Positions 5,668 to 20,933 of a stretch of DNA of 33,828 nucleotides are shown here, piece by piece; within the stretch, counting starts at the first letter, position 1; every line of letters starts with the position of its first letter. Both the position numbers and the translations under genes were made by a program. The notes beneath the pieces are model-generated. The model did not search any database. It had not been told where the DNA came from and saw nothing but the letters and a program-made list of their open reading frames with translations. Origin of the DNA: a virus; IMG/VR virus record IMGVR_UViG_3300035034_000370, positions 1 to 33,828 of that record, one strand, 5' to 3'.

Positions 5668-6649
5668 TGGCTGCTTTTATTTGATCACTATTAGCCAGTT
5701 TCCCTAGCTCAATGTCTCTCTTAATTCCTGTATTGTATCCAAATCTTAAACTAACTCCATCAATGTAGTATGATCCATTTCTCTCCTTAAATAGATCATC
5801 CTGGATCTCTGTGATATCTCCATGCTCACAAATTGGTAAATGAAAACCTGTAAAGGATCCTCTAAATCCATCATACTTTAGATCATCTATCTCTCTATCT
5901 GCTATCTGCTGTAGCTCCATCTCTGACAGATTGTAGTAGTGTAATGTCCTCAAAGCTCCATCTGCATCTCCCAGCTTAATCTCAATTTTTGAGTTATCAG
6001 GTAAAATGCTGATAGCTCTTAACTGGATTTTGATATCCTCTTTAGTTCTATATTTCAAAGTTTCTAGCCTGTCTACTATATTTTTTTGAAAGTGATGTTT
6101 TACTTTCTTGTAAGTGTCCAGTGGATAAGCAAATCCTACATATAACTCTCTATTTTTGAAATAGGATTTTAAGCCATACATCTTTTTAAGTTCCTGGAGT
6201 ACTTGTGCTGAGTTTACATCATTTATTCTGAAAGCTCCCAGCTCCATGTCCAGTACATGAGTTTTTATTCCTGGTGCTATTGTGTCAATCACATCCTTTA
6301 GAGTTGCATTTCTCCAGCTCTCCTGGATATTACTGCTCTGCTTTAGCATCCACATCTCATCCTCACACTTAATGGTTAATGGTACTCCTGTAACTACCTC
6401 TGAGACATATCCCTCAAACTCTGTATTTAGATCTCCATCATAACCTACTTTTATAGTGACTTTATCTCCTTTTTTGATCACCTCTGAGATTGGCTGCTCA
6501 GTAAAATTCTTTAGTACCGTTACCTTTCTAGGGAGTTTTATCTCAGCTGTATCTGTTAGGTTTTTCCAGGAGGATTTAATAATCCCCTCCATCACAAATG
6601 GGATCTCTAAACTGCCTATTGTGATGTGTGTCCCTACTAAATAACTCAT
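5660..6649 (-). CDS. Baseplate hub protein (gpD / Mu gp44-like)
   Basis: A 329-aa product close in size to gpD-type hubs. Features: an N-terminal beta domain with GDKVTIKVGYDGDLNTEFEGYVSEV, the usual 'G-d-x-v-x-i-x-x-G-Y-x-g...F-x-G-x-v' signature, then LKDVIDTIAPGIKTHVLD and the ELKKMYGLKSYFKNRELYVG segment of the second barrel. The hub trimer carries the spike at the end of the tail tube. The gene overlaps the spike gene by 8 nt and the DUF6046-like gene by 4 nt. Confidence 0.7.
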   Translation of the reverse strand: MSYLVGTHITIGSLEIPFVMEGIIKSSWKNLTDTAEIKLPRKVTVLKNFTEQPISEVIKKGDKVTIKVGYDGDLNTEFEGYVSEVVTGVPLTIKCEDEMWMLKQSSNIQESWRNATLKDVIDTIAPGIKTHVLDMELGAFRINDVNSAQVLQELKKMYGLKSYFKNRELYVGFAYPLDTYKKVKHHFQKNIVDRLETLKYRTKEDIKIQLRAISILPDNSKIEIKLGDADGALRTLHYYNLSEMELQQIADREIDDLKYDGFRGSFTGFHLPICEHGDITEIQDDLFKERNGSYYIDGVSLRFGYNTGIKRDIELGKLANSDQIKAANA

Positions 6650-7221
6650 AGTATTATTAACTCTATTTCATTGTCACTAATACAGTCAATTACAAAAGGC
6701 TGCACATTTACTAATTTCTCAGATGCTGGAAAGTTGACTCTCCTAATGATCACATTATGGATCCCATGTAGATTTAAAAGTCTGCTCTCTACTTCTATAG
6801 ACTCATTATAATCTAGCCACTTTTTTAGCTCCTCTATTTTTGTATGAGGTAGATCATCCTCCTCCTCATTGATCAAAACTCCTCTTATTCTGATCACAAA
6901 ATCCTGCTCACCTATTACCTCATGGACACTGCCTGCAATACCTTGTACTTTTGATGATACAATGTGCTTAGATCTGTTTACATCCATTAGTGGAGCATCT
7001 GTAAACTTATACTGTCCATTGTTTTTGGTAAGAGTAAGACTCTCATAGATTGGAGTCCCAAATGTAGAGCTGAGTGATCCCTCTGCCACTCTTATTGTCT
7101 CTATTTTTGACTCATCATACTCAAAATCAGGATTAACTTTACCATTGATCTCAGGTACATATCCGTTTATCTTAAAGATTTGCCTGGTTAACTCGAATGC
7201 ATTAATTTGATATTGTGCCAT
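6646..7221 (-). CDS. DUF6046-like tail/baseplate protein
   Basis: A 191-aa product. It stands where Mu has gp43, between the tail chaperone and the hub. Features include SSTFGTPIYESLTLTKNNG (an 'S-x-x-G-t-P-v-x-d' segment), QDFVIRIRGVLI in the middle and ELKKWLDYNESIEVESRLLNLHGIHNVIIRRVNFP, where a local-to-baseplate beta domain is likely. Proteins of this kind are frequent in Bacteroidetes contractile phages. It begins 7 nt after the frameshifted chaperone extension ends. Confidence 0.5.
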   Translation of the reverse strand: MAQYQINAFELTRQIFKINGYVPEINGKVNPDFEYDESKIETIRVAEGSLSSTFGTPIYESLTLTKNNGQYKFTDAPLMDVNRSKHIVSSKVQGIAGSVHEVIGEQDFVIRIRGVLINEEEDDLPHTKIEELKKWLDYNESIEVESRLLNLHGIHNVIIRRVNFPASEKLVNVQPFVIDCISDNEIELIIL

Positions 7222-7227
7222 TTCTCT

Positions 7228-7407
7228 TTAGATTTTGTCCAGCTCTTTTAATTTCTGTAGCCACTTGGCTTGTGCCAGCTTTCTTGTGTATAACTTAATC
7301 CCCATTTTCTCAGGGAAAGGTATGTGTAAAAAGTGACTGATAAGAGCAGACGTATGCTCATACGTCTGCTGGTTATCTTTATCACTTATATGACAGCTGG
7401 CTAGTGC
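7228..7407 (-). CDS. -1 frameshift extension of the tail assembly chaperone (GT part)
   Basis: This frame has no stop from 7407 down to 7228 and lacks an early ATG. It is entered by slipping back one base on the A AAA AAG site, giving 59 extra residues that begin ALASCHISDKDNQQ and end KWLQKLKELDKI. The fusion would be 106+59 = 165 aa. Basic and aromatic content (LYTRKLAQAKWLQKLKELDK) suits the T part, which in other phages contacts the tape measure. An internal ATG at about codon 35 could also give a 25-aa peptide, which seems less likely. No other gene explains this 170-bp stretch. Confidence 0.7.
   Translation of the reverse strand, partial: ALASCHISDKDNQQTYEHTSALISHFLHIPFPEKMGIKLYTRKLAQAKWLQKLKELDKI
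7345..7370 (-). other. Hairpin downstream of the frameshift site
   Basis: Perfect 12-nt arms agcagacgtatg (7345-7356) and catacgtctgct (7359-7370). It lies about 36 nt past the slippery heptamer in the direction of translation, further than the usual 5-9 nt, and is not followed by a T-run, so it is not a terminator. It carries four CpG in an otherwise CpG-poor region, which suggests that the structure is selected. Confidence 0.6.
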
Positions 7408-7724
7408 TTTTTTGCCTCAGAGTCTAATATCTCAATAGTGTCATAAACCTGGATAGCTCCAGCTAATCTCACTTTTGTATTAGATTTAAACTCCTCATCA
7501 CCATCTATCATCAAATTGTCTAGAAAAAACAGTTTCCTAGTCATGATGCTAGACACATCCATCCCTGCTGAGAATAGATCCAAATTGCTCAAAGGATCTT
7601 TGATCAAACATCTAAATTTTTTGCCCTCTTTATTAGGCTTTTCATACACTGTGATCTCTGTCACTGTACCATGCTCATCTTTTAATTTCTTCATCTGAGC
7701 TGGATTAACTGTAAATTTTCCCAT
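7401..7724 (-). CDS. Tail assembly chaperone, zero-frame product (G part)
   Basis: A 107-aa acidic product located between the tail tube and baseplate genes, where Mu and lambdoid phages encode frameshifted tail chaperones. It ends LDSEAKKH at a TAG that follows the slippery heptamer by one codon. Residues 1-50 form a beta-rich N-terminus (TVTEITVYEKPNKEGKKFRCLI) and the C-terminus is mostly extended (VRLAGAIQVYDTIEILD). These chaperones coat the tape measure during tail assembly and are not in the virion. The identification rests on position, size and the frameshift signal. Confidence 0.7.
   Translation of the reverse strand: MGKFTVNPAQMKKLKDEHGTVTEITVYEKPNKEGKKFRCLIKDPLSNLDLFSAGMDVSSIMTRKLFFLDNLMIDGDEEFKSNTKVRLAGAIQVYDTIEILDSEAKKH
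7407..7413 (-). promoter_or_regulatory. Programmed -1 ribosomal frameshift site A AAA AAG
   Basis: In the zero frame the message reads GAG GCA AAA AAG CAC TAG. The heptamer A AAA AAG is the canonical X XXY YYZ slippery sequence used for example by dnaX of E. coli. A -1 slip bypasses the TAG and opens 59 more codons. Both reading and context fit the G/GT type of tail chaperone control. Confidence 0.75.
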
Positions 7725-7742: not shown

Positions 7743-8174
7743 TTATATTCCTTTAAAATTGATATCACCTATAATTAAAGTGATTTGTTTCTCTGCATTA
7801 GTAGTATCTGTAGACACATCTACTCCTCTGTTAGTAAATTCACAGTGCATTAATTTATGTACTGTAAAAGTTCCGTTTCTATTGAAACTTGCAACTATTG
7901 GAAAGGGCTTAATGTCAGTTATGTCCTTTCCTAATGGTAGTGCATTCTCAATAGCATTAAGCTCTGCCTCTGATAGAGTGATAGATCCTGAGTATTGTTT
8001 CTTACCTCTCCCTCTGCTCACTGGCTTTGCTCCTCTACCGTAGTGATTTGCTTTGTCTCTCTCTAGATCGTATGTAATTGCAGAGATCCCCTCCACAGTA
8101 CGTCCTAAAAGATTTACATCCAAACCTACCCAGTCATGAGCCTCTCCATTTATAAGTGCTGTATTATTTGCCAT
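7743..8174 (-). CDS. Tail tube protein-like
   Basis: A 143-aa product of the size of contractile tail tube subunits, placed directly after the sheath gene as tube genes usually are. The sequence (NGEAHDWVGLDVNLLGRTVE, then AITYDLERDKANHYGRG and KKQYSGSITLSEAELNAIEN) shows the 'y-x-G-s-i-t-L...E' pattern of tube proteins, and QITLIIGDINFKGI forms a terminal strand. The tube is packed with the tape measure before DNA ejection. The call comes from order, length and pattern. Confidence 0.6.
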   Translation of the reverse strand: MANNTALINGEAHDWVGLDVNLLGRTVEGISAITYDLERDKANHYGRGAKPVSRGRGKKQYSGSITLSEAELNAIENALPLGKDITDIKPFPIVASFNRNGTFTVHKLMHCEFTNRGVDVSTDTTNAEKQITLIIGDINFKGI

Positions 8175-8186
8175 TGTTTTTTAGTG

Positions 8187-9416
8187 TTAATTTAATTGTT
8201 TAGTCATTCCTATCTCAACCTCTAAAATCCTACCTGTAGCAATTTCTACCACAGCAATTTTAGTCATGATTACTCCTGTAGCCTGGACATCCTGATCAGG
8301 ATCTACAAATGCATCCATACCTGATATCTCATCAGACTGTAGCATCACACTCAAAGCCTCCTCTGCATCAGCCTCAAAAGATTTGGCTACTGCCATCTCT
8401 ATTTTACCTGTAGATGCATCCAATAAAATTGGTGAGTTTACTCTAGGTAACAATTTAGCATACACCTCTCTCACAGCTTTGTTAATTACTCTCCTGGTGT
8501 TCCCATAAGCGTAATCACTTGTAAGTGCTGCACAGGCAGGAAAATCATCAAAGTAAACCCCATTTTTTACAGTGTTTCCATTGTACTCTCTCCCAAATAA
8601 ATAACCTTTTAAAGTAAGATTACCATAGTCTGCCTCATAGTCTGCTACTGCTTTTTTAGAACTTAATCCAGGATTAAGGAAAGCACCCACCAAAGCATCT
8701 GCTAGGTTAAATTTAGCTACATACCCTATGCTCTCATGTACATTAGCCACAGATACTGTCCCTAAGGTAGTTCCCACTGCTGCATGTCCTGCATGTATTG
8801 CATGATTATCTGCTACATCTAAATCCTGTAGGATAGTCACATGCACATCAGGAGATAATAATGATCTAAGATCTCCAGCAGTTGCTACAGTACCACTAAA
8901 GCTCCTCCCTTCTATTACAACTTGTACAGGTCTCTTTAAATCGTACTCAGCATTAGCCAATAATTGTGCTTTTGCTACAGCAGTAGTCACATCTGCATCT
9001 ATTCCAGCAGTTATGGTAGCTGTATAAGATGTAAGTGGATTTAAAATCACACCTACCTGTCTGATCTCTCCCTTAGCATCTTTTAATAATTCTCTCAAAT
9101 GAGCATTAGCTAAATCACACATCTTAGTCAATGAATTGCTAGCCTGAGCTGTCAATCTGATGTATAATGATCCTGATGGATTCATCCTAAAAAACTCTTT
9201 AATGTGATAATAAACTAACACATTATTTGCAGTATCATAAGCCTGGTTAATACCTAAGTCCTCAGCATCTTCTACTCTGCTCAGCTTTGCTGATGTAGTC
9301 TCTAATGCTAGACCAGTAGCTGCTACTCCTCCAGCCATTAATCCTGACACCATGTCCTGTGATGGGTTACGTCTACCTAGACCTCCCTCACCTCTTTTAA
9401 TGATTAACTTTCCCAT
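8187..9416 (-). CDS. Contractile tail sheath protein (DUF2586-like)
   Basis: A 409-aa product resembling DUF2586 sheath proteins of Bacteroidetes phages. The N-terminus (KLIIKRGEGGLGRRNPSQDM, then VSGLMAGGVAATG) is typical. The C-terminal part has the sheath-like NTRRVINKAVREVYAKLLPRVN segment and a final beta strand exchange arm (VMTKIAVVEIATGRILEVEIG, interrupted here to stay short). This identifies a contractile, Mu-type tail. It is followed within 12 nt by the tube gene and preceded by a coiled-coil gene. Confidence 0.75.
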   Translation of the reverse strand: MGKLIIKRGEGGLGRRNPSQDMVSGLMAGGVAATGLALETTSAKLSRVEDAEDLGINQAYDTANNVLVYYHIKEFFRMNPSGSLYIRLTAQASNSLTKMCDLANAHLRELLKDAKGEIRQVGVILNPLTSYTATITAGIDADVTTAVAKAQLLANAEYDLKRPVQVVIEGRSFSGTVATAGDLRSLLSPDVHVTILQDLDVADNHAIHAGHAAVGTTLGTVSVANVHESIGYVAKFNLADALVGAFLNPGLSSKKAVADYEADYGNLTLKGYLFGREYNGNTVKNGVYFDDFPACAALTSDYAYGNTRRVINKAVREVYAKLLPRVNSPILLDASTGKIEMAVAKSFEADAEEALSVMLQSDEISGMDAFVDPDQDVQATGVIMTKIAVVEIATGRILEVEIGMTKQLN

Positions 9417-16338: not shown

Positions 16339-17622
16339 ATGAGCATATTTGATAAAATCACCTCTATCCCTACAGAGATAAGAGAGACAATACAAGCAAA
16401 AAGGAGACTGAGTAACCTGATGGATGGCATGAGTAGGCAAAAAGCCACCAGGCTAGTAGATAAATTAGTGAGAAAGTATGATGGATTAAAAGAGAATGAT
16501 GTAAGATCCTGGAGGAATGCACATGCTTTGGCTTTAAATCCTGAGAATCCTAATAGAGCTGAGCTATATAATGTTTACAGAGATGCATTGCTAGATGATC
16601 ACCTGATAAGTGTGATCCAGGTAAGGCTAGAGAAAATGCTTAAAAATGATTTTGAGATAGTTGACATTGAGAGTGGAGAGGTAGATAATGAGGCTACTGA
16701 ATTACTTAAAAAGAGATGGTTTTGGCAGTTCCTTACATTTGGATGGAATGCCAATTTATTTGGATATACTTTGATCCAATTTGGAGACCTGGTAGAGACA
16801 GCTGATGGCTTTAGGTTTAAAAATGTAGAGGAGGTAGATAGGAGGTTTTTAAAGCCTGAGTATGGAGTATATGTGGAGGATCCTAATGATGAGGTGAGCA
16901 GTGGATACTCTTATAGAAAGGGAGGTATTTCTAAATGGCTTATTGAGGTAGGGAGTCCTACTGATTTAGGTTTATTACTAGAGGCTACACCACTCACAAT
17001 CTCTAAAAAATACATGGGGATCTTTTGGGATGAGTTTGCTGAGATGTTTGCTGCTCCCATGAGAGTAGGTAAAGTAGACAGCAATAATACTGGAGAAAGG
17101 ACTAAGATGGCTAATATGCTAGCTAATATGGGACGTAATGCATGGGCTATGATTGATCAAAGCTCAGAGATTGAAATAGTAGAGACTAACAAAAAAGATG
17201 CTTTTCAAGTCTATGACAAAAGGATAGAGAGAGCTGAGAAAGGAATGAGTAAAAGAGTGCTAGGATCTACTATGATTGTAGATGATGGATCTAGCCACTC
17301 ACAGGCAGGTGTGCATGCAGATGTGACTAATGACATTGTGAGTGCAGATAAAAGAGAGCTGATGTTTACTATCAATGAGGATCTGATCCCTTTCCTAATA
17401 TCTCATGGATATCCTTTGGAGGGCAAAAAATTCAAATGGGATGATGATGAGAAACTATCTCTAAAAGATCAGGCAGAGATTGATAAGTGGCTGGTAGAGT
17501 TATTTGATATTGAGGCTGAGTATTTTAAAACCAAATATAACTCTAGTATTACTGACTATAAAAAAGCAGATCCTAATACCAAAGTAGAGGATAAGACTAA
17601 AGCTGGAGAGGAGGGAAAGTAA
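16339..17622 (+). CDS. Portal protein (DUF935, Mu gp29-like)
   Basis: A 427-aa product. DUF935 features: RAELYNVYRDALLDDHLIS, IQVRLEKMLKNDFEIVD, the wing segment RWFWQFLTFGWNANLFGYTL, and RVLGSTMIVDDGSSHSQAGV before a C-terminal clip region. The dodecameric portal is the DNA channel at the head vertex. It ends EDKTKAGEEGK with a TAA that is directly followed by an ATG (17623) in a different frame from MuF. An AGGAGGG stretch lies at the end of the gene. Confidence 0.85.
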   Translation: MSIFDKITSIPTEIRETIQAKRRLSNLMDGMSRQKATRLVDKLVRKYDGLKENDVRSWRNAHALALNPENPNRAELYNVYRDALLDDHLISVIQVRLEKMLKNDFEIVDIESGEVDNEATELLKKRWFWQFLTFGWNANLFGYTLIQFGDLVETADGFRFKNVEEVDRRFLKPEYGVYVEDPNDEVSSGYSYRKGGISKWLIEVGSPTDLGLLLEATPLTISKKYMGIFWDEFAEMFAAPMRVGKVDSNNTGERTKMANMLANMGRNAWAMIDQSSEIEIVETNKKDAFQVYDKRIERAEKGMSKRVLGSTMIVDDGSSHSQAGVHADVTNDIVSADKRELMFTINEDLIPFLISHGYPLEGKKFKWDDDEKLSLKDQAEIDKWLVELFDIEAEYFKTKYNSSITDYKKADPNTKVEDKTKAGEEGK

Positions 17623-17759: not shown

Positions 17760-18947
17760 TTGATCAAACGCTTTTTTAATAAGGAGGTGAAAGCTGGAGA
17801 GATAGATGCTGATTTATACCTGGAAACTGCTAGCCAATTTGAGGAGGCAGTAAATGAGGGGATAGGGCTAGATTTTGAGTACAATCATCCTGATAATGTG
17901 ATGAGATCTAAACTGAGGACTAATCTCCATGTGTTTAGTGGTGCAAAATCTCTCTCAATGTTTGAGCAAATAAGAGGAGAGCTGTCCAATGAGGATGGAT
18001 CTGTGAGGACTTTTGCTGAGTTTAAGGATAAGGTGCTAGATATTGATCTCCAGTATAATACCAACTGGCTAAAAACTGAATATAACCAGGCTATAGTACA
18101 GAGTCAACATGCTAAGAATTGGAATGCATTTAAAGAGGATGCAGATCTGTATCCTAATCTTAAATATGTGACTGTGGGAGATGATAGAGTGAGAAATGAT
18201 CATAAGGCACTAGATGGCATTATCAGACCTATTGAGGATGATTTTTGGAATACCTATGCACCACAAAATGGATGGGGATGCAGATGTACTCTAGAGCAAA
18301 TGGATGAGGATGCTGTGACTACTGATATAGAGGAGGCTAGAGGTCTAGGAAAGGGAGTGATAAAACAGAAAATGTTTAAGACAAATGTAGGTAAAACTGG
18401 AATTGTTATGCCTGATGATCATCCCTATTTTAAGAATGCCAAAGGATTTGATAAGCAGCTAAAAGCTGAGGATAATTATGGGATGAGAGGGATTGTGGAT
18501 ATATACAATAAACCTGCTAAGCTAGCCAAATACAAAGGAGGCATAAAAAGTAAAGAGGACTATACCAAATGGTATGATGATCAAATCAAAATAAGCCCAA
18601 ATAAAGACAGTACAGGGATTGTATTTGATAGTATCACTGGATCAAAAATTGAGTTTAGCAATAGGCTCCTAGAGAAAGACTCAATAAATAAAGGTAAAAG
18701 GTATTTATTTGCTGATGAGATAGAGGAGGTTTTATCTAAACCTGATGAAGTATGGAGCAGCAATAAAGGGACTAAGAGAAAGAGTGGAGCATTTATCACC
18801 ACATTTATAAAATACTATAAGGATTATCCTTTTGTGATTATTCTCAATCCATTAAAAGATAATGAGATTAGTATACAGAGCTTTTATAAATTGGATAAGC
18901 AGAAACCTAATGCTTTTAGATTGGGGATTTTAGAATATAGAAAATGA
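17760..18947 (+). CDS. MuF minor head protein with C-terminal PBECR-like nuclease domain
   Basis: The MuF part is clear: WLKTEYNQAIVQSQHAKNWN, then YVTVGDDRVRNDHKALDGII and WGCRCTLEQMDED (the 'R-x-x-H-x-x-l-dG...g-CrC' core). MuF proteins are head components of tailed phages. The C-terminal ~110 residues (LFADEIEEVLSKPDEVWSSN, FITTFIKYYKDYPFVIILNP, FRLGILEYRK) look like the PBECR/barnase-EndoU-RelE-type nuclease domains often fused to MuF. The stated start is a TTG at 17760; the frame is open upstream from 17601 with plausible coding (NEAAASNKYRALAVALNHFY) but no in-frame ATG, so the true start is uncertain. Confidence 0.75.
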   Translation: MIKRFFNKEVKAGEIDADLYLETASQFEEAVNEGIGLDFEYNHPDNVMRSKLRTNLHVFSGAKSLSMFEQIRGELSNEDGSVRTFAEFKDKVLDIDLQYNTNWLKTEYNQAIVQSQHAKNWNAFKEDADLYPNLKYVTVGDDRVRNDHKALDGIIRPIEDDFWNTYAPQNGWGCRCTLEQMDEDAVTTDIEEARGLGKGVIKQKMFKTNVGKTGIVMPDDHPYFKNAKGFDKQLKAEDNYGMRGIVDIYNKPAKLAKYKGGIKSKEDYTKWYDDQIKISPNKDSTGIVFDSITGSKIEFSNRLLEKDSINKGKRYLFADEIEEVLSKPDEVWSSNKGTKRKSGAFITTFIKYYKDYPFVIILNPLKDNEISIQSFYKLDKQKPNAFRLGILEYRK

Positions 18948-19031: not shown

Positions 19032-20933
19032 ATGAGTAATAGTACAGTATGGGAGTGGAGACTTAAAGATAAGAGTGATGCTGCTTTTGATAAACTTGGC
19101 AAAAAATTCAAAAAAACTGAGAAATCAGTAGATGATTTTGAGAAAAAAACAGGGGACTCATTTGACAAAGTAGATGGAAAATCTAAGAAATTCACAGGCA
19201 ATCTAAAAAAAGGATTAAAGGATGCTAGTGCAGAGATACCTGGATTAAATAGAGGACTCAGCCTGATCAAAAACCCTTTGGTTTTAGGAGCTGCTGCTGC
19301 CTTAGGTTTTGGAGCTGCAATGCTCAAAGGAGCTAGGGAGGCTAGAAAGTTTAATCATGAATTTTTAGAGCTTAAAAATCTTAATCTAAACAAATCCACT
19401 GAGGAGGTAGAGAACCTCAAAAAAAGCATTTTAGATCTTAGTTTTGACAAAGGACTTAATCCTGAGAAAACATCTAAGGCATTTTTTGATGTACAATCTG
19501 CTACAGGTAAATACGGTAAGGAGGTAGAGATCACTGTGGGAAAGGTTGGAAAATTTGCTCAAATAATGAAAGCAGATTTTAATGGATCTATAGAGGGAGC
19601 CAGTAAAGCTATGGGAATCTATGGATTTGGAGCTGAGAAAATGGATCAGTTTCTAGCCTCACAATTTAAGACTGTGCAGGTAGGTATCACCACATTTGAT
19701 CAATTGTCTAAAGTTCAGACTGAGTATGCCAAATCTGCTGCTGCATCTAATCAGGGATTTGATGAGGCTAACAAATTATTTGCTGTATTTAGTGCCAATG
19801 AGAAAAGTGTAGATATAGCTGCTACCAAAACTAGAGGAGCATTTGAGGATCTAACAAAAGCCAGGACTATAAAAGGTTTTAAAAAGTTAGGTGTAGAGAT
19901 TTTTGACACTCAGGGAAACACTAAGAAACTGGATGATATTGTGGCTGATCTTGTGCCAAAGTTAAAAGGCATGAGTGACACTAGATTTTCTGCATTAAAG
20001 GAGGAGATAGGAGGTAATGAGGGACTAAGAGGACTACTGGACACACTGAAAGGATCAGGAGACAAAGTGCTGGACACTTTCAAAGCATTTGATGAGACTG
20101 ATTTTAATATGGATAAAGCTCTAGCCAATGCAAATGGAGACCTGGAGATCATGAGTAATATAGTAGATAATAAACTGACAGCAGCCTGGATCAAATTTGG
20201 TGAAAAAAGCACACCAGTACTATTAAAATTAAAAGGACTGGTAATAGACATCCTAGATGGAGCTGGTAAATTTATGGACATTCTAGGTACATCAGCTGAT
20301 CAAAGAGCTGGCAAAATGGATGAGGAGAGAGCTGCAAAAGTAAAAGCAGCTGAGAGAGGCATAGGAGGAGACTCTGCTCTAGTTACTTTCCTGAGTAAGC
20401 AGGGCAAAGATTTTGATCATGATGCATTTATAAATAAATACAGCAATAATCCTCAAAATTTAGCTGTAAAGATGTCCCAGTCAGTATTTAGCAAAGAGGA
20501 GAGGCTGGCACTTTCAAATAATACGAAAAATGGCAATCCATTTACTGATAAATTTAGAGAGGATATTTATAATGAGTTAAATAGCATTGAGATCTCTAGA
20601 GGCAATGGGCTAAGCATGTCCAAAATTCTAGGATTTAGAAAGGATAAAGTCCTGAGTAAAGATGATTTGACTCCTAAAGTAGCTCCTCCACTTGTGCCAG
20701 GAGGATCAGGAGATGCTGGAGGATCACCAGGAGGATCTACCTCAGGAAACTTAACAGGAATAACTGGAGCAGCTAAACAGGTGAGAAATGTAACAGTAAA
20801 TATACAGAATTTAGTGAGAGAGCTGACTGTAAATAAAGAGGGAGGTGTACTATCTCCTGAGGATTTATCTAGACAAATAGAGGAGATTTTTATCAGAGCT
20901 GTGCATGATGGAGAGCTGGCTCTATCAAATTAA
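19032..20933 (+). CDS. Tail tape measure protein (TP901-like)
   Basis: A 633-aa product. N-terminal residues are charged and helical (WRLKDKSDAAFDKLGKKFKK). A hydrophobic segment follows at ~80-98 (NPLVLGAAAALGFGAAMLKG). The core has the TP901 tape measure pattern: VGKFAQIMKADFNGSIEGAS, then AMGIYGFGAEKMDQFLASQF and VQVGITTFDQLSKV. The C-terminus has a Gly/Ser-rich linker near GGSGDAGGSPGGSTSG. At about 1.5 A per residue it would predict a tail of roughly 95 nm. It is encoded in the rightward operon, far from the sheath, tube and chaperone genes on the other strand, which is unusual. Confidence 0.85.
   Translation: MSNSTVWEWRLKDKSDAAFDKLGKKFKKTEKSVDDFEKKTGDSFDKVDGKSKKFTGNLKKGLKDASAEIPGLNRGLSLIKNPLVLGAAAALGFGAAMLKGAREARKFNHEFLELKNLNLNKSTEEVENLKKSILDLSFDKGLNPEKTSKAFFDVQSATGKYGKEVEITVGKVGKFAQIMKADFNGSIEGASKAMGIYGFGAEKMDQFLASQFKTVQVGITTFDQLSKVQTEYAKSAAASNQGFDEANKLFAVFSANEKSVDIAATKTRGAFEDLTKARTIKGFKKLGVEIFDTQGNTKKLDDIVADLVPKLKGMSDTRFSALKEEIGGNEGLRGLLDTLKGSGDKVLDTFKAFDETDFNMDKALANANGDLEIMSNIVDNKLTAAWIKFGEKSTPVLLKLKGLVIDILDGAGKFMDILGTSADQRAGKMDEERAAKVKAAERGIGGDSALVTFLSKQGKDFDHDAFINKYSNNPQNLAVKMSQSVFSKEERLALSNNTKNGNPFTDKFREDIYNELNSIEISRGNGLSMSKILGFRKDKVLSKDDLTPKVAPPLVPGGSGDAGGSPGGSTSGNLTGITGAAKQVRNVTVNIQNLVRELTVNKEGGVLSPEDLSRQIEEIFIRAVHDGELALSN

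Follow-up and report, generated by a model that had tools for sequence, protein, structure and literature searches.

Comparison with related genomes indicates that the tail assembly chaperone gene of a Mu-like Bacteroidota phage is expressed by -1 frameshifting, an event of a known kind that, at the level of this comparison, is real. In the phage studied here, the stimulator would be a long-range RNA stem which begins 5 nt downstream of the slippery site and encloses a strong hairpin as one arm of its domain; we regard this account, taken as a whole, as likely. The hairpin had been noticed in an earlier sequence-only reading, which judged it too far away for a standard stimulator. As such, the account shows how a seemingly too-distant hairpin can belong to a frameshift signal.

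The window, meaning the whole analysed stretch of 33,828 nucleotides (IMG/VR record IMGVR_UViG_3300035034_000370), belongs to a Bacteroidota phage that is Mu-like, has a contractile tail and is related to Winoviridae. Its genes fit this type and include a transposase (phrog_310, E=6.7e-36). The sheath relatives with named records are Winoviridae such as Peternella_1, lotta8-1, FPSV-S1 and fF4, and human-gut phages are also found among the relatives.

The chaperone gene and its -1 frame

In the window, the chaperone gene comes directly after the tail-tube gene. The features of the locus and its surroundings are as follows.

8187-9416, minus strand: tail sheath (PF10758, E=2e-40), the query for finding relatives
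7743-8174, minus strand: tail tube-like protein, upstream neighbour of the chaperone (phrog_4579 'tail protein', E=1.6e-18)
7401-7724, minus strand: 0-frame ORF for the tail assembly chaperone, 107 aa (phrog_19076, E=7e-5)
7407-7413, minus strand: slippery heptamer A AAA AAG, in phase (the ORF ends GAG GCA AAA AAG CAC TAG)
7401-7403, minus strand: 0-frame stop TAG, one codon past the heptamer; the predicted long-range 5' arm starts on its final base
7228-7407, minus strand: -1 frame extension, 59 codons after the heptamer, ending in TAA at 7230-7228
6646-7221, minus strand: baseplate hub-like protein, downstream neighbour of the chaperone (PF19512)
19032-20933, plus strand: tape measure gene (PF10145)

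The sequence-only reading had the zero frame ending one codon past a canonical heptamer at 7407-7413 and the -1 frame open for 59 codons. Both statements hold: the heptamer is in phase on the minus strand, and a -1 slip at A AAA AAG yields a product of 165 aa that terminates at the TAA. The extension corresponds to a conserved C-terminal domain (..LISHFLHIPFPE..LYTRKLAQAKWL..), and its -1 frame contains no ATG, GTG or TTG before about codon 31. Among the 104 in-frame X XXY YYZ heptamers in the 44 genes of the window, only this one and another at 17613-17619 are followed by a -1 frame that stays open for at least 15 codons beyond the stop of the gene.

We take the 0-frame protein to be a tail assembly chaperone because of its synteny; structural support is weak. 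A match to phrog_19076, a PHROG without assigned function, is common to 27 of 37 aligned relatives, and no Pfam model matches either the 0-frame part or the -1 part. The AlphaFold2 model of the 0-frame protein is confident (pLDDT 88). Its best Foldseek match in the PDB is the HK97 tail assembly chaperone 2ob9, which is not significant (E=0.54), and VIA-align gives Z scores of 4.1 for 2ob9, 4.8 for 3klu (YqbN) and 8.1 for the uncharacterised 3fgx. For a large group of Bacteroidota phages, the analysis suggests a function for phrog_19076 and puts a name to a C-terminal domain that had lacked annotation.

The tape measure gene of the window lies on the strand opposite to the chaperone, about 11 kb away. 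In Peternella_1, FPSV-S1 and BS-TP1 it comes after the chaperone, unlike in the window.

Conservation of the frameshift in relatives

Relatives were collected by sheath-based searches, and at each locus the tube gene and then the next ORF were located. Single-protein scans of viral contigs with the chaperone and with the hub had returned nothing, and the sheath was used instead; a broad sheath alignment gave no usable patterns. The survey of 318 related loci led to 167 distinct tail-chaperone genes with a -1 extension, of which 128 representatives are less than 70% identical to each other in the extension.

Across the 167 loci, the extension has a median length of 65 codons, as against 6 for the +1 frame, and 150 of them carry a canonical in-phase slippery heptamer in the overlap. 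Heptamer conservation was among the checks that the sequence-only reading had proposed; what it named as evidence against itself, homologues lacking the heptamer or two unrelated genes, is not the rule. The commonest heptamers among the representatives are AAAAAAG (37), AAAAAAA (35), TTTTTTA (12), AAAAAAC (9) and GGGAAAG (6). In 62 of the 128, A AAA AAN stands exactly one codon before the stop, and where a run of A or T is exactly 6 long, the slippery phase is kept in 60 of 62 runs. There is no ATG, GTG or TTG through codon 15 of the extension in 124 of the 167 loci. The extension evolves as a protein read in the -1 frame, usually without a nearby start codon: in 14 close pairs of relatives, the changed codons are 138 synonymous versus 65 non-synonymous in the -1 frame, and 26 synonymous versus 177 non-synonymous when the same stretch is read in the 0 frame. 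Because the heptamer and its phase are conserved, the -1 frame is coding and a start codon is usually absent, the programmed frameshift originally read from a single sequence can, on this comparison, be called solid.

Several relatives depart from the common arrangement. In about 30 Flavobacterium prophages (within L016-L072), in which the chaperone ends in DHIQPKPVKVEIL, the 0-frame gene has no -1 extension, and a search around 15 of these loci did not turn up the C-terminal domain; the frameshift has apparently been lost there. Seven loci (L012, L045, L131, L218, L237, L268 and L301) keep a -1 extension although their site, one codon ahead of the stop, is only of the tetramer type (A AAG), and in L010, L210, L247 and L079 an extension is present without a canonical heptamer. 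In L079, only three -1 codons are open before the end of the stop (GAG AAT TTG TAA). Public annotation omits the extension of Peternella_1 (MT732475.1; L007 4501-4742), and in fF4 (MN850656.1; L006 4555-4698) it is annotated as a separate ORF of 47 aa.

The distant hairpin and a predicted closing stem

Folding of the extension RNA places the hairpin within a larger predicted domain, with these elements.

7395-7401, minus strand: GCCAGCU, predicted 5' arm of the long-range stem; it shares a base with the stop codon and starts 5 nt past the heptamer
7274-7280, minus strand: 3' arm AGCUGGC of the predicted long-range stem, in the codons K-L-A of ..TRKLAQAKWL..
7331-7387, minus strand: strong inner stem-loop of 7+5+11 bp by folding, which includes the hairpin 7345-7370
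7290-7323, minus strand: second, weaker inner stem-loop of the enclosed domain, by prediction only

The 12-bp hairpin at 7345-7370 is present as first described, about 36 nt downstream: it is a perfect 12-nt inverted repeat (7345-7356/7359-7370) that begins 36 nt after the heptamer. This distance stands for the core; the sequence-only reading missed the helices 7387-7381/7337-7331 and 7377-7373/7343-7339, which stack beneath the hairpin and bring its base to 19 nt from the heptamer. That reading had offered a pseudoknot, a long-range contact or another mechanism, and the long-range contact is the best supported of the three. Since the hairpin would lie inside a closing stem predicted 5 nt from the heptamer, it need not touch the ribosome directly. 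Neither the second stem nor the family of related loci was seen in the sequence-only reading.

The structure is unusually stable. The inner stem-loop 7331-7387 has a z score of -5.7 against dinucleotide shuffles, and the extension RNA has an MFE of -51.6 versus -28.2 +/- 4.2 (z -5.6), a value reached by none of 500 protein-preserving codon randomisations; a local hairpin as stable as that of the window arose in none of 300. The arms GCCAGCU/AGCUGGC pair with a probability of 0.74-1.0 in folding windows that hold both, and the stem appears in every such window tested once the fold spans more than 130 nt. It is predicted to close a branched domain around the hairpin and the second stem-loop. The long-range duplex (-15.9 kcal/mol) is better than expected from protein-preserving changes of its 3' side (p=0.022), and the arms' own pairing ranks at 0.008 against cross-locus pairings, and under a looser score, by which any stem close to the site counts, the window has p=0.18. 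A stable stem 5 nt after the heptamer falls, as a prediction, within the range of about 5-9 nt for a 3' stimulator. In silico, the stem survives when the first 5 nt after the heptamer are held single-stranded and is lost with 6, which places its base near the expected edge of the ribosome and makes its stability marginal.

No close relative was found with which to test covariation of the window's own stem, and the nearest sheath relatives (L002, 46%) have T TTT TTG and an ordinary short hairpin. The formation of the stem in the window is predicted rather than proven, and quite likely.

Forbidding the core hairpin in silico leaves the probability of the long-range stem unchanged, and so a helper role of the hairpin is unproven. 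Unusually strong inner hairpins recur in several members with long-range stems (z -5.8 in L204, -5.3 in the window and -4.2 in L231), and strong ones lie inside the long-range stem of L226 as well. Two further ideas about the hairpin were rejected by eye. As a transcription terminator, it has no T run directly after it and lies inside coding sequence; for kissing by its GAGC loop or an H-type pseudoknot, no complementary stretch worth testing was seen near the heptamer. Rfam gave no match above chance on the minus strand.

Long-range and local stems in relatives

Similar long-range stems were first seen in L007, L008, L009, L073 and L088 of an initial set (L002-L113), from which the hypothesis was drawn that the 5' arm pairs with the codons around a conserved W/KLYAEL motif. 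In a cross-locus control, each 5' arm was paired with the 3' regions of other loci; for the initial set this gave p=0.0007 to 0.008, depending on the column range and set. A fresh set of 84 representatives, from loci fetched after the hypothesis was formed, again paired better with its own 3' side in the core columns 30-46 (z -7.6, p at most 5e-5, with kinship only partly corrected). For columns 8-20, where a local stem-loop would lie, z was -7.1, and for those between and beyond it was about -2. Because pairing peaks at these two places, the family has two preferred forms, one local and one long-range. In relatives, the equivalent long-range stems start 3-7 nt from the heptamer, and the base of the stem, local or long-range, lies 3-10 nt from it. 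In the proposed class of Bacteroidota phages with such a signal, the long-range stem would span about 95-128 nt.

Covariation documents such stems beside the slippery site in two clades. The T TTT TTA clade has a 5' arm GCRTARAG, stop codon included, that pairs with the codons L-Y-A, and RNAalifold, run on 20 sequences with no structure given, returned this stem as the only consensus helix. All 160 of 160 cells are paired (100%) and 18 are changed on both sides; no shuffle among 500 reached these values for pairing or double-changed cells, or the observed covariation score, and sliding the arms by 1-3 columns reduces pairing to 13-51%. At synonymous third positions, the leucine codon covaries with the stop TAG/TAA and the tyrosine codon with GCG/GCA. 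Where the T TTT TTA site lies 12 nt from the stop, the 5' arm still begins 6 nt after the heptamer. In the second clade, of 7 sequences, RNAalifold recovers a stem at the equivalent position, in which 3 pairs show compensatory changes. A 12-bp stem with a span of 66 and one compensatory change is common to Bacteroides phage BS-TP1 (L014) and L108.

The long-range form is not general. By partition function, 54 of the 128 representatives have a local stem, 25 a long-range stem and 49 neither, and the idea of a long-range stem common to most members was rejected, as only those 25 fold so; over all representatives, the count of long-range pairs is not above that of codon-shuffled controls (Wilcoxon p=0.56). 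A Shine-Dalgarno stimulator is not enriched in the family (7 observed versus 7.1 expected), and none lies at a usable distance in the window. Bacteroidota hosts are reported not to rely on Shine-Dalgarno pairing.

Proposed mechanism and alternative explanations

We infer that most ribosomes stop at the TAG, giving the 107-aa chaperone, and that some slip at A AAA AAG to make the 165-aa fusion with the conserved C-terminal domain. Slipping would occur as the mRNA entry side of the ribosome meets the domain closed by GCCAGCU (7401-7395) and AGCUGGC (7280-7274); that the stem stimulates by contact at the mRNA entry is suggested by known -1 signals. The hairpin at 7331-7387 would be an arm of this domain that probably helps its folding or resists unwinding, and it may compact or stiffen the domain, an effect to which the energy model lends no support. 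By analogy with lambda gpG/gpGT, the two products may act in a ratio, loading tail-tube subunits on the tape measure. For a widespread class of Bacteroidota phages, we lean towards a model in which a long-range stem, with its 5' arm close behind the slippery site and overlapping the stop, encloses a branched domain, sets the chaperone ratio without a Shine-Dalgarno element and interchanges in evolution with local stem-loops, and in which a second -1 frameshift fuses portal and head-morphogenesis proteins.

A reading in which the frameshifting is real but is stimulated by the hairpin itself, or by a small fold local to the spacer, and the long-range pairing arises by chance, is unlikely. In its favour, the hairpin far exceeds in strength what protein-preserving controls permit, and the window stem has only 7 bp and individual p values of 0.02 to 0.18; however, at 19 nt or more the hairpin lies beyond the usual reach of 5-9 nt, 0-frame ribosomes terminate before reaching it, and relatives keep the stem base, of either form, at 3-10 nt. 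That the stem base follows the heptamer, with the arm 6 nt on even where T TTT TTA is 12 nt from the stop, and that covariation constrains synonymous sites of the extension, also makes it quite improbable that the heptamer and nearby stop suffice for low-level frameshifting, with the RNA structure serving, for instance, mRNA stability or translation of the next gene. This reading would agree with the 49 of 128 representatives without a clear stem near the site and with the lack of enrichment of a Shine-Dalgarno stimulator (7 against 7.1 expected).

In favour of transcriptional rather than ribosomal slippage, the site often carries runs of 6-9 A or T. Polymerase slippage, however, needs no phase, which is kept in 60 of the 62 runs of exactly 6; GGGAAAG and AAATTTA sites occur without a run of 6, and the paired RNA domain downstream is conserved, so that this origin of the -1 product is very unlikely. 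We give almost no credence to two separate genes or a sequencing error in the A run, although public annotation has the 47-aa ORF in phage fF4 or leaves out the downstream part elsewhere: the same change occurs at one place in 167 distinct loci, isolates included, and most loci have no start codon before the conserved domain.

Relation to known frameshift signals

Xu, Hendrix and Duda (2004) reportedly described -1 frameshifting in the tail assembly chaperones of dsDNA phages. The present gene resembles these and lambda gpG/gpGT in adjoining the major tail gene, in giving a short product and a -1 fusion, in its X XXY YYZ site near the 0-frame end and, in relatives of the window, in the tape measure gene that comes next. 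It differs in that no Pfam model matches, only phrog_19076, the stop usually lies one codon past the heptamer, a strong RNA domain follows on the 3' side, and the window has its tape measure gene elsewhere and on the other strand.

A 2016 review of recoding describes lambda gpG/gpGT, simple stem-loops as in dnaX, a three-way junction for IS911, a long-distance pseudoknot for IS3411 and an unexplained long-range effect in T7 gene 10 (PMC5009743). The predicted domain shares with IS911 a closing stem near a slippery A AAA AAG, inner stem-loops and branching (PMC5009743), but it belongs to a phage gene rather than a transposase, its stem spans about 110-128 nt and takes in part or all of the stop codon, and the upstream Shine-Dalgarno stimulator of IS911 has no counterpart, whether at a usable distance in the window or enriched in the family. 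The window signal would thus work like that of IS911, and for want of a Shine-Dalgarno stimulator we do not file it as IS911-type. As in the apical-loop/internal-loop (ALIL) pseudoknot of IS3411 and other long-range stimulators (PMC5009743), a distant RNA segment would take part, but here as a strand of the primary, nested stem, with no pseudoknot needed. Escherichia coli dnaX likewise combines A AAA AAG with a stem at about 5-6 nt, and many relatives of the window have such local stem-loops, although the dnaX signal is a simple local hairpin together with a Shine-Dalgarno stimulator upstream.

A search of the openly accessible literature returned no account of Winoviridae frameshifting, nor any of tail chaperone genes with a long-range stem. 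The findings offer a candidate long-range stimulator, supported by covariation, for bacterial viruses, in which few are known, and a natural series of local stem, long-range stem and no stem that suits tests of stimulator evolution. The PRFect predictor works on windows of 50-100 nt (PMC10885494), and windows of this size would often miss such a long-range stem.

A second candidate frameshift

The other heptamer with an open -1 frame marks the portal/head-morphogenesis junction as a candidate for a second programmed -1 frameshift. The portal gene (16339-17622, plus strand) ends in G GGA AAG TAA, with the heptamer at 17613-17619. From there the -1 frame is open for 440 codons, to 18947, through an SPP1-gp7-like head-morphogenesis gene, and it has no ATG, GTG or TTG for 46 codons; a 12-bp stem starts 4 nt downstream of the heptamer. 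The ORF finder placed a TTG start at 17760, probably in error.

Relatives arrange portal and head-morphogenesis sequences as one continuous ORF, as separate ATG-started genes or with a -1 shift and a heptamer. A single ORF of about 690-880 aa is found in L326, L328, L337, L339, L349, L350, L352 and L354. In three human-gut phages (L320, L321 and L322), the junction reads T TTT TTC GAC stop and is followed by a covarying 7-bp stem, the sides of which are GCCCTTC/GAAGGGC, GCCCCGA/TCGGGGC and GCCCCGC/GCGGGGC.
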